DNA from: Polytrichum commune
Taxonomy: Eukaryota; Streptophyta; Polytrichopsida; Polytrichales; Polytrichaceae
Assembly (NCBI GenBank): GCA_950295325.1
Contig: OX485808.1
Location: forward strand, 3,226,501 to 3,290,500
Direction: 5' to 3'
DNA length: 64,000 bases
The notes under the pieces are model-generated. The model worked only from the letters and a program-made list of their open reading frames with translations, ran no database searches and was not told where the DNA came from. Made by a program: the position numbers and the translations under genes. Of the stretch, positions 32,501 through 63,083 are shown piece after piece. Position 1 is the first letter of the stretch; each line of letters begins with the position of its first letter.

Positions 32501-35500
32501 TTTCGCCAGTGACAAATCTCAGCACAATATTTGACATTATTTCTAGTGTTAACTAGGATTGAAGTAAATATGGACAAAAGGCTCATCCAAAATCAACAAT
32601 GCACCTAAGACTTTTTTTTTGCCCAGTTGAGACGTACTTATTGTGAAACAATGTATTTGGAGAAAGAAACTAGAGAAATTATGATGACGTTCCCAATCAT
32701 ACATACTTTGAGTAGGAATCTGACCAAACATTCTCTCTGGATGCGTACTTTTTCACAAATAACACAACGTGCATGCAACTGAAACGTGCTATAACAGGAG
32801 ATGCAATTCACATCTAGAATTTGTTGCTGCCATTTCTATCATAAAATCCACCGAGAAAACTGAACGTATTAAAATGATCAACACTTGTGAATAAGTCTAG
32901 ATTTACTTAAAACATACATAGTTTGCTACACTTGGTAGTCATTTAAAGGGAGAGGGTACATTATATGGTCGCAACGTAATAAACATTTGCAAGCCCGGAC
33001 GCAAGCGACCTTCTTCAACGAGATGCGCAGTTTGTGATGTGTACCTGGGGGGATGCACTCCTTGCCGGAGGGCGGAGATGAGTGATCGTGGATTTTGTTG
33101 ACTTGCGGGAGTCCGGGAGGTCGATGCACCCACAAGAACAGGTATGGGCTGGCTTCAAGCGCAAGAGCCAGCTCCCTCACCTGCTCTTCGGAGACGATGG
33201 TAGTCAGGCTCCCGAACGATATGTAGAGCACCGAGTGTGCCTCTTGAGCGTCCAGCCACCTCTCCGCCTCCGACTTGTCGTTCTCGTCGCCGCCGCGGTC
33301 GTCGTCGGCTACTAGCGCACGGGCCTCGCCTCCCCACGCACAGTCGGGGACCATGGGGCCGATCGGAACCAACCTCGGCACCTGCAACACATCCATGGCA
33401 TCGTGAAACACAAGCGTAGGCCATGCCGCCAATTCATCGACGACGGTTCCGGAATCAGAATACCGTAGTACCATAGCTGGTTCGTTCAAAAATAATTCTA
33501 AAAATAAAAAATGTAAAAATTATGAAATTATGAAGACAGAAAAACGAAAATAAAATAAAATAATTTTTGCAATCTTTTGGTGTTTCTAAGCCATTTAAGG
33601 TCATTTTTACTGATTTTTTTGCTAAAAATGAAAATTGAGAAATTCAGTTTTTTGAGAGGCGAACCTTATTTTTTCAAAATAAATAAATATTCGTTCGCCA
33701 GGGGACGAACCAACTATTGTGTTACGGTAATCGAGACACTTTTGCAATGGAGCTCGCTAAAATGACCCCTTGTTGCCTGACTTTAGCTACGTCTAAAAGT
33801 TCTTTCTAAATTAAAATCACAGTCGGGCGGACCATTGATCGGGTCGATCGGAACCAACCTCGGCACCTGCGAGACATCCACGGCATCGTGAAACAGAAGC
33901 GTGGGCCACACCACCAATTCATCAACAACAGTTCCGGAATTGAAATAAACGGGACACTATGCAATGGGACTCGCTAAAATGCCTCTTTCCTGCCTGACTT
34001 TAGCTTATGCCCCCTCCCCGCCTGATTTTAGCTAAGCCTAAAGGTTCGTTCTAAAACCACAGTCGGGGACCATGGGGCGGATTGGAACCAACCTCAGCAC
34101 CTGCGACACTTTTGCAATGGAACTTGCTAAAATGCCCCCTTCCTGCTTGACTTTAGCTTAGCCTAAAAGTTCATTCTAAAACCACAGTCGGGGGACCATC
34201 AGGCCAATTGGAACCAACCTCGGCACCTGCGACACATCCATGGCATCGTGAAACAAACGCGCGGGCCATGCACGCCGCCAATTCATCGACGACAGCTCCG
34301 GAATCAGAATATACGAGACACTATGCAATGGAGCTCGCTAAATGACCCCTTTCTGCCTGACGTTAGCTTAGTCTAAAAGTTCGTTCTAAAACCACAGTCG
34401 GGGACACTCGGAACCAACCTCGGCACCTGCGACACATCCATGGCATCGTGAAACAAAAGCGCGGGCCATGCACGCCGCCAATTCGTCGACGACAGTTCTG
34501 GAATCAGAATAAACGAGACACTATGCAATGGAGCTTGCTAAAATGACCCCTTCCCGCATGACGTTAGCTTAGCCTAAAAGTTCGTTCTAAAACCACAGTT
34601 GGGGGACCATCGGGCCGATCGGAACCAACCTCGGCACCTGTGACACATCCATGGCATTGTGAAACAAAAGCGTGGGCCATGCTGCCAATTCATTGACAAC
34701 AATCCCGGAATCAAAATAAACAAGACACTATGCAATGGAACTCGCTAAAATGCCCCCTTCCCATCTGACTTTAGCTTAGCCTAAAAGTTCGTTCTAAAAC
34801 CACAGTCTGGGGACCATCGGAACAGTGCCGCCAATTCAGAAACCAGAATAAACAAGACACTATCCAATGGAACTCGCTAAAATGTCTCCTTCCTGCCTGA
34901 CTTTAGCTTAGCCTGAAAGTTCGTTCCAAAATCATGGCCTCCACAACATGATCGATGTTATCTAGTCCTGAGCTTAGTTTGGCGAAGGACGTGGCATGGT
35001 TCAAAAGTGGAGGTTTTAATCCTCGAGCACTGACCCTCCCATTGGTACGTAGAGATGAGGCAAGAATGTAGGACCTTTAAAAGTGTTGCCTCCAACCCTT
35101 GTGATTCGTTGCTTTTAGTCCTAGCTATGAGGGCGCAAGGAGCTACATCAACAAGAAGCGATGGTCAGATAGATGGGTGGTAAGGCACTTGGGGATGGGA
35201 CAAAAACTATCCAACATGTCATTGCTTGGTAGCTAAAACGATGAAACATGTGCGAGAGCTACTTAACTAAAACCTACTCGAAAATCTCCACAACAAGTTC
35301 TTGTAGGTGCATCAGGATAGCTGGGGTGCCTCCACCATAATTGACAGAGCTTTACCATTGATCTACTTTGCCTTACCACTCAACTACTTTACCATCGCTT
35401 TTTGCTAATGAAACTCCTCATGCCCTCATATCTAAAACCAAGAGCAACCAATCACAGGAGTCAAAGATGACACTTTTGGAAGTCCCACATTCTTGCCTCA

Positions 35501-54879: not shown

Positions 54880-57800
54880 TCACGTGTGCTTATATCTGCC
54901 AATGAGCTTCTGTGTGCAATCTTCAACAGCTTCCATGTCCATGACTATCGTGTCATCGCTGTTGTAATCAACTGTCTCCTGTGAGTCCACATCCGACATC
55001 ACCTCTGTTGCATCATCATCAAAATCCTCTTCCTCACTTCCACTGCAAAACATTACAATACCTGAGCAGGAGTTTTACAAATCCCCTTTATTCTATATTC
55101 AGCTACTAGAAAATTAGAATTAGACCTATCATGAATGATTGCAGATTCTTTGGGTTTGTCTGCAAATAAACATCAAAAACAATGATCATACAAGAGAAGA
55201 ACATTTTTTACCTATATGTTTTTGAAGTACTCTACATCCTCAGAAGATTCCCAATTATTGACTTCATATTCATGCTACTAAGGTAGAAGTCTTTAATTCA
55301 GATACTTTTCTCTCTGCACCCACTCCTTGTAGGATATGAAACATGCAATTAGTGTGAGATGATTAGCAATTTCGAATTGTGCCTATAGCCATTTGCCTTA
55401 TATTTTTTGGAGCTCATATGAATATCTTATTCATTATCAAAGTGAAGATTCTTGTGCTCATTAAGTGGTCATATAGGTGTTCAGATTATTGCTATGCTGG
55501 AATAAGGCACGTCTACCTTAGGATATAAAATAGAAATCTGAACAGACCTCCTTTTGGACTAAGACCCTGAAGGAAAGGACAACCCTTGTAATATACAGTA
55601 CATGTGTGACATGGAACAAACAATAATACAGCACCACATTAAGGTGGGGGAAAACCCCTGAATGGAGGTGATTGATGGTCTTACCCCTTTTTCTGCCGTG
55701 AGGCACCCACAGGGGCCTTTGAAGGAGTTATGAAGTGTTTCAGATTTTCCATGTAAATTCCTTTCAATCTTTCAGCTTCTCCAAGCAAACTGCTTCTCAT
55801 GGATTTTGCATATCCATCCTTGCCCTCCTCCATAGCTGATAGCTCTTTCACCGCCCTTGGAAGGAAACCCCAATTTTCAACAACACTCCTTATTCCCTAC
55901 AAGTATAACATCACTCTTTAATAAGCAAAGTGGCATTGTCATCCAAAGAAAACTGGACAAATACACTTTCCCCTCATTGAAATACCAGCATGCACCTGGA
56001 ATGTTCAACCCCTAATTACCTTCATTGCAGGCCAACGAGGGGTAGGGAGGACCACTCCAAAAACTCCACACCAATATGCCCCTTCCAATTGAATATATTT
56101 TGGTTCTTTATGGCTTGGATTTTGATCTAAAGACATTTGTGAAGTTCAGACAAAAACAGAGGAGACCTCTCATAAACCACCAATGGAACTAATTGGCAGA
56201 ACATCATACATTCAGTGAACAGTCATTTGCCTTCCAAGTACAAAGTTGTCTACACAAATCCCACGATATTGACTTGGCATGTAACCTGCAGATTTGATGC
56301 AAAGGTGGTGTTGTTGACCTAAGGAACTCACTTGATTTTCTTGCAGGTTTTTTATAGTATCTTCAAGGCAGAGTAGAATTCCCTGGGCAGCTGTAGATTT
56401 CAACTCCTTAGCTTCTGGCTGGAAAAACACAATTGACAATATTGAGTAGACTCCAGCAACAAGTAACCTGGTACAGGCATCTTAAATCTTTAGTACACAT
56501 TGTACCAGGCAGCTATCATGCTGCCCGGCAATAAAATGTCATGGTTGCATCCATATTTACATTTGTATCCAGAATATTGGAAGTAAAACAACTGCAAATT
56601 GGATGACATGATTTCAACCAACGGGGGGATGTTCCAAGTTTACATCCAATTCTTGGCAGTTCTCAGGCATTATTTTACTTTCCCACCATACTGGGCAGCA
56701 TGATGATTACCCACTTCACTATTGAATGAATCTCATATCGGCTAATAATTGAGCATTAGAGGAGTTGCATTCTGAGTTTAGGGTTCTGAGTTTAGTGAGT
56801 TCTGAATATAGTGAATTTTTCTCAATATAACCTAGAATACCTTTGCATCTTGTTGTTGCAGCCAATCCATTGTAGAAGTGAGATCATCATTTACCCACTG
56901 TCGAATCTCTGCCACGGATCCACAGCTCACCTTTTTCTGTATCGAAATCTCAACCTTGCCTGTAAGAAGTAAATATTTCAAGTTTCTGCCATCATAAGCA
57001 CAAGTGCAAAAAACTAACAAAGAGAAATGTGACAGAAATGTGACAAATTCAATTTTAAGAATTTACCTAAAACAGCATCCACTGCCTGTGATGAACTGCC
57101 TAGTGTTCTCCATGGCTTCGATCCCTTGTTCATAAGGAATCTGCATGGATTCAAAAAATGGGCATACATGAAGTACAAAAGATTAAAGAAATGAGAGGTA
57201 AAGTTGCAACACTTTTTCAACTTTGTCATATAATATTGCTCACTATTGGCTTGGCATACACTCAACTATGGACAGTCTGACAACATAACTCCATGCATGC
57301 CTGAAAAATATACATTTAAGACTACCTGTCTATATCTACAAGTTTTCGCTTCTTATAGCACTCGGGTATCCAATCCTGCAAACATCCCACCCCCCATTAA
57401 CAATGTTGATAATTTACAAGTTGATGAGGTATGCTAAACTAGGAATAAAAATCAAAAATACCCTCAGATATTCTCCACTACATTTAACTGTTGACATGAT
57501 GTTTTGCATAACATGATCTGAATTTTCTTAACAAGTAGCTCAAAAATTTATTGCATGTCCAGTTGGAGCCATCAAGATGTTAGCAACAGGTTTCAGTTAA
57601 AGCAAGAGTTAGAACCTTGGAAACAATAGTGCCGTCATCTCCTTTGACTTGTTTAAATTTTGGTGTATCCATGAATGCACAGACAAGAAGGGTGCAGTCA
57701 TCAGTCCAGTCAGGACGATACCGAGCTCCCATTTCCAAGGCCTCAGTTCTTAAATTTCCTCTCTCAGGATTTTGTATGCCTGAGATCGCAAAAACAACAC

Positions 57801-60593
57801 CTTCCTACACCATTTCGAAAATAACATGTACCTGGTGAGTGTCCATGCCATTGATTGCTTACATAGCATATATCATGTTTAATAGTACTTGGAAATAAAA
57901 AATATTCATGAACATCACTATGCTGATAGTAACCTGTACTTATCAGAATTTTATACAACTACAACCAATCTGACCAAGATTCATAAAAAGCGGGAAAAAG
58001 AAGAAGCCATGAACTCGCTAGTCTTCTGAAAGCCTTGAACTAAATAGTACACAAATGAATATCACTAGATTGCTTCTTGCACATTTCTGAGAATCCTACC
58101 AGAATTTTTGTGAAGTCTTGCTCTGGCACTTTCTTTGGGGCAAGACTTGTATCCGTCGGATCTCCAACTTTCTTACTCCCAAGTGCTGCTCTCCTTGAAC
58201 CTGCAGATGATTGCCCTCTTTCTTTTGATAAAGAAACCCCAGTTTTCTGATTATCATCATCGTTTCCACCTTGAGCTGCATCTTGTTGATTATCAGTCTT
58301 TCGCCTCGTCCCTCCAGTTTCAGGCTGGGCACCAGCATCCGAGTGTTTTTCATTTGACAGGGTGCTACATTTCCCTACACCTGCTTGGTCGACCTTCAGT
58401 TTCTTGGGCTCCTTATTTTTTGTTACATCTTTCACACCTACACTCAGGTGGTTTGTGGTAGACTTGCTGCTTTTCTGGTACTCAAAATTGTCTTTATCTG
58501 TTGATGACTGACTTATTTGAGCAAGAGACCTTTTGTTATTTACCTTCTTTTCATCCTCCAAATCTTGAGTGTCCAAGACTTTTTCAGGCTCCTCTTTATC
58601 TGTTGTTTTCAGATTCGTGCTATCCTTGCGTGGATCTCGGTTAAGCTTACTCAGTTCCAAATCCAACCCAAAATCCTCATAACTATCGCGTTTCACAGCA
58701 TTTGGGTCTACACTTCCCTTCAACTTTTTGGGGGATTTCCCTTTCAGAGGCTCCTCAGGCTCACTTGGCGTTGCCCACGATGGAAGTTTCCTTTTCATAA
58801 CAGTAGTAGTGGGTTTGCCCTGGTCATTTTTCCCATTTTGATCTTTTTTTAGTAGCTTCTTGTTAGCTACAGTAGGCTCGCAAGGAGTGAAATTAATGCA
58901 TGCCAAACCTATGCAAGCACGATGTTCGAGAGTGCCAAAAGGTTGCCGACAATTCACCCTTATCCTTCTCCACCTGAAAAATTAAGCACATGCCCGTCAA
59001 ATTTAGGGGGTCAATCTAACCTCTTCATTGCTTATTTGATTGATCACAAAACTTTTTGAGAGTTATCTTTGTAACCACATCAACAGTAGACTTTGCTTCC
59101 AGTTGGCAAAAACAAAAAGGTAGAAGCAGACATCACAACTTTCACCCAATTTTGAAAAATCTCAACAAAATTAGTCCAACACCACATCCTTGATAAGGTT
59201 GTGATGATGGTACCTCATACTTATACATGAGTCTGAACTTGCTACAAGTCTTACTTGCAATATGGGAACACCATAAGAATAACAGAAGCCACTTTAAGCC
59301 CTACTGGAAAATGGTTTTGATTTTCTTTAGCTTTAGCTTTAAAATCTTGTGGTCAAAACTAGTCTCAATGTCCTTCACAATTTGACCAATGTAATGTACG
59401 GTTTTATCATGTGGATTAAGAATTTTACTTGTGTTGGGCGGCAACTGGCGAGAGCTTGCGAGTATCAATGTCATACACAAACGCTCGGTTGCGGTTGCTC
59501 TTGCTCATTAAATCCTTCACTGACATGACCTGCATCACATGTTTCCACAGTTGCTACGTTGTATTATATGTATGAATACATAAAACTACACCCAGTGGGG
59601 TATATTGCAATTATCTTCTAAACTATGTGATAATTTTGATTGACAATCTGCTACCTAGTAGCAGAATGTGGCACATATTAGAAAATAAGAAAATCACAAC
59701 CATAACATGTTAATGAGAAATTTATTATGTTATTTCAACATTTTATTGTTTCTACATGATAATTTTACCTCAGGAAATTTGTGATGTGTTTATTGCGATC
59801 ATCCATAATCTAACTTGTTATTGCTCGACGACACATAACCTCCTTACAGGGTTTAGGGTTTAGGGTTATGGATTTGGGGTTAGGGTTTAGGAGGAATACC
59901 ACAAGCAGGACAAAAAGTTCATAATTGGCATATTTTCATGACTGATCCATGATACATACCGATCATTGGGTAATTTCAAAATAGCACTCTATGCAGTGTT
60001 TGGAACTATGACATCAAACTAACCACCTCTTTTAACCTAGTCAAGGATTCAAAAGCTTTGCTGAGGACAAATGTGATCAAACTCAAACTGTTACAGATCG
60101 ATATGCATAAATGTACTACTCAAGAACCCAAAAAGAAGATCAATGATGAAAATTGAGGTAAAGAATGAGCAGGAGTAAATTTCGCTCAGCTTACTTCAGC
60201 AGGAAACAAACTCATGTGGACTAAGCACACTAAAAAGAGGGGTAGTTAAAATTGCTGAATTTCTCCTCCAACAACCTGCTGAAGGTGCAGACTAAATCAT
60301 AACTAACCCACCTGTTGTGCAGACAAGAGAAGCTCATAATCCTCAATTTCCTCCCCCTCAGCGTCCTCCCGCAGCCCATGAATCTCCACAAGTGCCGATC
60401 CCGCATTCACCATCTCCACTTTGTGGAATGCCGTGGGCGGCCGTGGTTGCAGTATTAACCATGCGTCATCAGTTGGGGATTCTGTCTGCCATAGCCTGTA
60501 CCTGTCTGGGTTTAACACATTTGTGGCTGGGTGCACCTCATCCTCCGAGGATCCATCTTTTACTACCCATTCAACTTCTTCTTCCTCCCCCAT
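54880..60593 (-). CDS. XRCC1: DNA-repair scaffold XRCC1 with N-terminal XRCC1_N domain and one BRCT domain
   Basis: Ten exons, all joined by GT-AG introns with matching phase: 60593-60312, 59529-59429, 58973-58100, 57804-57616, 57375-57326, 57140-57067, 56959-56841, 56418-56332, 55896-55685, 55042-54880, giving 716 residues. A TGA lies directly upstream of the ATG in frame, which fixes the start. Residues 1-158 read as an XRCC1_N (galactose-binding-like) domain, including NPDRYRLW, SALVEIHG and RVNCRQPFG. Residues about 159-413 are a charged, lysine-rich linker with nuclear-localisation-like runs (KRK, SPKKLK). Residues about 414-520 are a BRCT domain (GVVFAISG, CTLLVCAF and the conserved Trp in DWIPECY). 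The C-terminal part resembles the post-BRCT part of flowering-plant XRCC1 and ends in an acidic Ser/Asp-rich tail with CK2-type sites. The family scaffolds single-strand-break and base-excision repair in the nucleus. Human XRCC1 has a second BRCT that is absent here. Arabidopsis XRCC1 is about 350 residues and has no N-terminal domain. Confidence 0.92.
55325..55520 (+). repeat. Dispersed repeat D3, copy 4 (partial), in XRCC1 intron 9
   Basis: Shares TGTAGGATATGAAACATGCA and TATCTTATTCATTATCAAAG with the other D3 copies. It lies inside the 642-base intron 9 of XRCC1. Confidence 0.55.
59849..59891 (+). repeat. Interstitial telomere-type repeat (TTTAGGG) in XRCC1 intron 1
   Basis: GGGTTTAGGGTTTAGGGTTA followed by GGGGTTAGGGTTTAGG. 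These are plant-type telomere heptamers, slightly diverged. They could be a healed-break footprint or a telobox. Confidence 0.8.
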
Positions 60594-63083
60594 TCAACCC
60601 GAACACCTCACCAACCCTCACAGAGTCCTTGTTTCTTTTTCAAAATTGCTGAAAAATGTTGAGAGTTCAAGAGTAAATCCTTCCCCCATTCATCAACCCT
60701 CAAAACTTCCTTCACTGACTTGATTCCCAAGTCTTCACTTAAAACTCTTCTCTCTCTCTCTCTCTCCTCCCCTCTTACTCATACATAGATACATAACCTC
60801 CCACATTCACCCAAACACCTCACCGAACCTCACAATGTCCTTGTTTCAAAAATTTGCTACAGAACCTTAAGAATTCAGGAGTTGGGTAGCAGAGACATGC
60901 TTCTCTTATTTACGAAGAGTTTGAAGACCCATCTCTCCTCAAACTCCTCCCCCCACATTCACCCAAAACCTCACCGAACCTCACAATGCCCTTGCTTCTT
61001 CTAAACATTCCTGCAAAATGTCAATTGTTCAGGAGTTGGGTCACAGAAAAATGCTCCTCTTAAATTATTCACCAAGAATCGGGAGACCGACCATACTGAG
61101 AGTGTGTCTAATATGTACTGCCCCGCGTCACTGAGGCGCTGTGAACGCCTGCCGTATGTTCGGGGCTAGGAAGATCTCGGCCGTCGATTACGATCTGACA
61201 GATCTGAAGGTTCTTATGTTCTCCCAGCTTATGGTTTTTCGTCCCCTTAGCATACATTGTGACGGTAGCATGTTGCATTCATTCATGAGTAGGCATAATT
61301 TCAATTCATATGACTTCACAAATTGTTGGATGTCTTGATTGGAAAATTGGAGATCCAAGTGATACCAACATCGACGAAAGTGTTGGAGTGTCTAGGCATA
61401 GCATTTTCTACTAAATTTTTTGGATGGAATCATGTAGTAGATTACAACGATGTGTCATGGATGATGCATTTTTGGGATAATTCAAGAGATGATTCAATCG
61501 CTACAGTAGTGAGATTTGTAGCATTGTTGTTGTTTTTGCAAATTTAACAACACATTTTTATGACATATCTTATGTTTGAAAATTTTGATGAATGGCAAAG
61601 AATAGCCTTTTGCAATCTTTAGGAAAAATTAAAGATGCACAAGTTGAACACATGTCAAATTGTGAGTGGTGAAGGTGCAAGGTGTGTCGATGTTTGTGCA
61701 TTGTACGACAATAAATATATTAAAATTTGTGTCGGGGGTCAGGGTTGTGAGTTATATTCTTCATTGTGGATAAGTAGTGTGTGGGTAGTGAATGTTGGCT
61801 ATGTGTCACTTGGGGTGGTGAATACTACTTATTAAGTAAAAGCAGTGTCTCCGTGGTCCTAAACACTATGTTTTTCTTTGTGTGAAAGTAAATGTTGGTG
61901 AGATAGTATTGGCCCTGAGGACAAATTTTCATGCTCAACGTTGGTGGCTCTGCAAGTTTCGGTGTTGTGGTAGTTTGTGACACACCATCAAATCTCCAAC
62001 TTGCACTAAGATTTTGCACATAAACCCTCGAATTGTCTATTGTGATGATTTGCTTTGAGGACCTTGTTGAGTTGATTGGTAGTCGTCCTTGTGTTGAGCA
62101 TATTCAAACATCTTTGGAGAGGTTGCGGTGCAACCCCTTACTTGCTCGATGTGGAGGTTACATTTTTCTAGGGGAGGTTTAGGAACCATCTCAACTTTTG
62201 GATATGAGTACATTCAAGCATTTTAGTGTTATTGTCGACACTTGTTGTGTTGGGGTTTGCTCACATTTCTCCCTTGGTCAAGAGTTAGCCAAGTGTAGTT
62301 GTTTTGGATTTGGTTGTGATTGTGTTCCATGTTTTAGGATAACGTAAATCCTTCTTTCTTTCTTTTTCTTTTTTTCCTTTCTTTATCCCAATGAGGGGGA
62401 GGATAAGAGAGGGCAAGCCTGCCATGTAGATTTTATTTTTTAAACAAATTTTCTAGGTACGTAGAAGATGACGTGTGTTTTTATGGTGTAGTCTTTTGGA
62501 AATGTTTATGAGAAATTGCATGTTAATTAATAAAAATGTCAACATACAACTGAATATAGGTCTTGATCTAGAAAAGTCCACCCTCTATAAAGGTTACACC
62601 TATAAGTGTTAACCCTCTCTAAATGTGAACTTTCTTCTACTCCCCACATATTGCACACTATAAATGTTAAACGTGTTAGCTGTTAACAAAATGGTACTCC
62701 CTTCTTTGTTAATTTGACTCTATAAATGTTAACGAATGAAATACAACCATAATATGGATGATAAAAACTACACATCCAGTTACATTCCTCTCTCTCTCAC
62801 CATGCGTTAGGGCGAGGCACAAGGCAGCGAGGGTGGGATGGTGGCAGAGCGGCAGAGAATTGATTCCCAAAGCTTGAATTTGCAAGCATGTACAGTACAG
62901 GGATGCAGGGAGCTCCACCCCGAGGAGGAAAAACAAGAGAGAAGCACACAAGATTCGATATTCTCTGTTCCACTATGACCTCCCTTGGCATGTCACTCCG
63001 CCAACTCCTCTTACACGATCAACCACTCCTGATGCTCCCAAAGAATATTCCTTTCTTGTCACGGTCCGCACCCCTGCTTACAG
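60594..63083. other. XRCC1 upstream region and gene-free flank
   Basis: The first few hundred bases should hold the XRCC1 promoter and leader; they are pyrimidine-rich on the plus strand. Two similar stretches with TCACCRAACCTCACAATG lie at about 60820 and 60970. Beyond 61100 only short, unrecognised frames appear. Confidence 0.4.
60747..60768 (+). repeat. CT-rich tract upstream of XRCC1
   Basis: TCTCTCTC run about 155-175 bases upstream of the XRCC1 ATG, seen as GA on the coding strand. GA/CT tracts are common in plant promoters and 5' leaders. A regulatory role here is a guess. Confidence 0.6.

Follow-up and report, generated by a model that had tools for sequence, protein, structure and literature searches.

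The DNA considered here is a stretch of 64,000 nucleotides from Polytrichum commune (assembly GCA_950295325.1, contig OX485808.1, positions 3,226,501 to 3,290,500), referred to below as the window, and on its minus strand, from 60593 to 54880, lies a gene for the DNA-repair protein XRCC1. Ten exons with consistent phases join into 2151 nt, which encode 716 amino acids and a stop, and all nine introns run from GT to AG; the clean join into a 716-residue protein described in a first-pass annotation, which was made from the letters alone, is correct in both coordinates and length. An in-frame stop stands directly before the first ATG of exon 1, so the reading frame does not extend further upstream in that exon. 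The exons, with the evidence for each, are as follows.

60312..60593, minus strand: exon 1, start codon and N-domain residues 1-94 (frame, splice sites, XRCC1_N match)
59429..59529, minus strand: exon 2, N-domain (frame, splice sites, Pfam match)
58100..58973, minus strand: exon 3, end of the N-domain, the extended linker that holds KRKLPSW at 188-194, and the start of the BRCT match
57616..57804, minus strand: exon 4, BRCT (splice model, Pfam and PDB matches)
57326..57375, minus strand: exon 5, end of the BRCT (splice model, Pfam; too short for a genome match of its own)
57067..57140, minus strand: exon 6, region after the BRCT (splice model, genome protein search)
56841..56959, minus strand: exon 7, C-terminal region (splice model, genome protein search)
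56332..56418, minus strand: exon 8, C-terminal region (splice model, genome protein search)
55685..55896, minus strand: exon 9, C-terminal region (splice model, genome protein search)
54880..55042, minus strand: exon 10, acidic tail and stop (splice model, genome protein search)

The gene is a real XRCC1 with an unusual combination of domains. The check that the annotation had proposed, a search of the translation with hidden Markov models from Pfam, finds XRCC1_N in residues 11-154, aligned to model positions 9-146 of 148 with E=2.2e-25 and 89.8 bits (cut-off 21), and exon 1 alone already matches this family at E=1.3e-12, so the predicted N-terminal domain is present. The single BRCT domain of the prediction was likewise recovered, nearly over its full length, at residues 416-489 (E=9.6e-9), and no second BRCT was found in the 716-residue protein by Pfam at E up to 1. 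When the PDB was searched, nine distinct sequences matched at E up to 1, and the first four of these are XRCC1 chains, which we take to be human: the best, 2d8m (DNA-repair protein XRCC1), covers the BRCT at E=4.6e-28, and three N-domain sequences match at E 1.3e-15 to 1.8e-15. By its best match the central BRCT is thus most similar to BRCT1 of XRCC1. Local alignment of the N-domain with the XRCC1 residues in the PDB gives 45 identities over 123 aligned positions and a score of 181, against a mean of 27.5 (sd 4.3, maximum 52) for 500 shuffles. In the BRCT, the PDB alignment shows that Ser, Arg and Lys residues are kept, which presumably line the pocket for poly(ADP-ribose). The C-terminus may resemble that of Arabidopsis XRCC1. 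Two tandem units of TTTAGGG, the plant telomere type, were also seen in intron 1 (window 59852-59865).

The window locus is the single complete XRCC1 locus found in the genome, although its 5' end is repeated elsewhere. A profile search of the 407.8 Mb genome finds XRCC1_N at four places, and the whole protein gives at least 14 matches, nine at the window locus and five at the other three places, all such counts being lower bounds. Matches from residue 415 onward occur at the window locus only, where exon 5 (about 16 codons) is not matched separately. The three further places (C2:55.66 Mb, C3:41.98 Mb and C2:28.50 Mb; L005, L006 and L007, respectively) were considered as working paralogues, which would make four in all, and rejected, as they are truncated 5' fragments without the BRCT exons. 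In DNA the fragments match the window at 97.7, 98.6 and 98.6% identity, introns included where these are reached; they share a left edge near window position 60979, together with about 187 bp that the window does not have, and their right ends are nested, at window positions 58838, 59533 and 60232. They look like copies of the XRCC1 5' end and not like working genes, and the pattern suggests that a mobile element made the copies, although no such element was identified behind the fragments. A 313-base stretch, 99% identical between the two loci, follows the fragment in L005 (4106-4418) and directly precedes that in L007 (1-313). A selection test on the copies was ruled out because only ten exon sites vary, and none of 34 pattern-matching stretches in viral contigs encodes a relative. 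Elsewhere in the window, an exon of a UDP-glycosyltransferase was noted at 32929-33519 on the minus strand (UDPGT, E=8.4e-6).

The N-domain of XRCC1 is known in animals as the handle for DNA polymerase (Pol) beta. An exon-by-exon search with the Pol X models (E up to 0.001 for the thumb, up to 1 for fingers and palm) gave one match for each, all on the same strand and within C5:815090-818637.

C5:815090-815179: Pol X thumb match, model positions 34-63 of 63 (partial)
C5:817196-817294: Pol X palm match, model positions 24-56 of 113 (partial)
C5:818497-818637: Pol X fingers match

These belong to a Pol lambda gene at C5:813400-833300 (L010, L011), which has exons for the 8-kDa domain, fingers, palm and thumb. 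With 51.1 bits the fingers exon is closer to Pol lambda than to Pol beta (40.2 bits); the C-terminal piece has Pol lambda as its best match (E=0.0026), followed by TdT (0.061), and reaches Pol beta only at 1.3, after unrelated chains; and the 8-kDa exon matches HHH_8 at 5.3e-9. An N-terminal BRCT in this polymerase is likely but weakly shown: the joined stretch reaches BRCT at E=0.0092, below the family cut-off, and has one PDB match, to PAX-interacting protein 1 (0.0066), while its larger exon alone matches no family. By sequence similarity the locus is Pol lambda-like, and it is the only family X polymerase found. Pol beta was not found with the three models, in an exon-wise search that scored 5, 1 and 1 candidates on partial domains and had no control genome with a known Pol beta. 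For higher plants, a passage in PMC10787897 likewise gives Pol lambda and states no Pol beta.

On the question of what the N-domain could bind, F67 and V86 of human XRCC1 form a pocket for the V303 loop of Pol beta, as described in a passage of PMC6614843; in excerpts from PMC8405949, V86R prevented the complex from forming in one assay, and Pol beta was bound less tightly by R109A. In P. commune the local alignment places L68 at F67, L88 at V86 and F111 at R109. The contact set is not kept, but the first two changes are conservative, so that binding of Pol beta would still be possible. Human C20 is replaced by P22 in the same alignment, and C12 by Gly in the PDB alignment, two cysteines to which we ascribe a redox role. 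With Leu at both sites (L68, L88) the pocket is still hydrophobic, a feature in favour of a protein ligand, though the human pattern has not been preserved. Among possible protein partners of the N-domain, Pol lambda would most simply come first.

The linker offers a second possible contact. K188-R-K-L-P-S-W194, encoded in exon 3, fits R-X-X-P-X-W, which is given as the core Ku-binding consensus in a passage of PMC4831024, and it has the R-to-W spacing of the Ku-binding motif of APLF, placed at R184 to W189 in an excerpt from PMC5207133; unlike the APLF motif, the P. commune candidate is known as a short sequence motif alone. In shuffled sequences [KR]R..P.W appeared in 80 of 20,000 and R..P.W in 534 of 20,000, the pattern having been picked after the motif was seen. 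A second fit to the core, at residue 447, falls inside the BRCT match and is probably a decoy, and the KRKLPSW peptide had no match in the PDB. We regard KRKLPSW as a candidate Ku-binding motif and as a lead.

The explanation that we favour, and hold to be rather probable, is that this is a working XRCC1 with the ancestral architecture of N-domain and BRCT, later shortened in Arabidopsis, whose N-domain docks some protein, though not Pol beta. This XRCC1 keeps the animal order of N-domain and BRCT1 and has no second BRCT; the BRCT, to judge from its conserved pocket residues, would bring XRCC1 to ADP-ribosylated breaks; the linker and C-terminus would, as other plant XRCC1 proteins are reported to do, bind ligase I, end-processing enzymes and PCNA; and the N-domain would act as a hydrophobic docking module, most simply for Pol lambda, while flowering plants without it would rely on the remaining contacts. 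Several points weigh against this. The non-detection of Pol beta is absence of evidence at the sensitivity of the search and not proof; Phe stands here at R109, a residue at which substitution by Ala makes the human protein bind Pol beta less well; and human Pol lambda appears to hold XRCC1 elsewhere. According to parts of PMC11241748, the human proteins bind with a dissociation constant near 9 nM, or near 139 nM when the BRCT and SPR parts of Pol lambda are removed, and the authors place the contact chiefly between the N-terminal part of Pol lambda and the central and C-terminal part of XRCC1, a contact mainly outside the N-domain that disfavours a simple docking of Pol lambda there.

The N-domain might instead have been retained to sense nicks or gaps in DNA, with no need of a polymerase partner, an idea we consider unlikely. 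In its favour, the three-model search did not find Pol beta, a preference of the human N-domain for nicks and gaps has been reported (cited in PMC6395731), and the alignments show R33, W35 and the SNxNR run to be conserved; yet a passage of that same study found no DNA binding by the isolated human N-domain and describes damage sensing as irreproducible there and by others, both pocket positions are still hydrophobic, and in residues 1-160 acidic residues (28) outnumber basic ones (18), which disfavours DNA binding. The failure to find Pol beta would also suit a relict, encoded and folded but partnerless and heading for the loss seen in Arabidopsis, as would the altered contact residue R109 and redox residue C20, but a near full-length XRCC1_N match without stop or frameshift and the identities shared with the animal protein make this quite improbable. 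Least credible of all is that exons 1-2 come from another transcript or a duplication and that the working XRCC1 starts in exon 3 or 4. That the gene's 5' end has been duplicated to three further loci, which share their left edge, speaks for it; however, those truncated copies have none of the BRCT exons, the domain order is that of animals, and the N-domain ends in exon 3, whose single open frame continues across the linker as far as the BRCT exon. The last point also disfavours exons 1-3 as a separate gene, one of the two findings that the first-pass annotation had named as refuting its proposal; the other, a missing XRCC1_N match at the N-terminus, is contradicted by the match reported above. 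A bolder variant of docking, to which we give little credence, is that in early land plants the N-domain exchanged Pol beta for Pol lambda and the APLF-like linker motif tied XRCC1 to Ku, angiosperms later dropping the N-domain only; if true, one scaffold would serve both single-strand-break repair and end joining.

Returning to the favoured reading, a state that preceded domain loss is the parsimonious one because animal XRCC1 has the same domain order. That an intact protein with an N-domain and one BRCT is encoded at the sole complete locus stands from the original proposal; its ancestry we infer, and from one plant genome. Loss of the N-domain would then be placed within plant evolution and not at its root, and its persistence where Pol beta was not found would point to a role older than its holding of Pol beta, or to a change of partner. 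The genome also contains a radial spoke family match (E=2.6e-38), which implies motile cilia and hence, among land plants, a likely seedless plant; the XRCC1-bearing plant probably has flagellate sperm. In a seedless plant amenable to cultivation and gene editing, the role of the N-domain could be tested directly. The significance is moderate, as the spread of the N-domain among other plants may already be annotated; among the matches listed in the open-licence literature there was no report of a plant XRCC1 with an N-domain, although database annotations may exist.

Compared with known systems, the P. commune protein shares with animal (human) XRCC1 the order of N-domain, linker and BRCT1, and differs from it in having no second BRCT match, and in having Leu at both F67 and V86, Phe at R109 and Pro at C20. 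In animals the second BRCT binds ligase III. According to a passage of PMC3969565, one survey did not identify XRCC1 in prokaryotes. With Arabidopsis (AT1G80420) and rice XRCC1 the P. commune protein shares a single BRCT and the lack of BRCT2, plant XRCC1 being described without BRCT2 in an excerpt from PMC6728418, and Arabidopsis XRCC1 without either the N-domain or BRCT2 in the relevant part of a review (PMC10573277). The latter agrees with what the first-pass annotation says of the N-domain in Arabidopsis and marks the main difference between the two plant proteins: the N-domain missing there is kept in P. commune.

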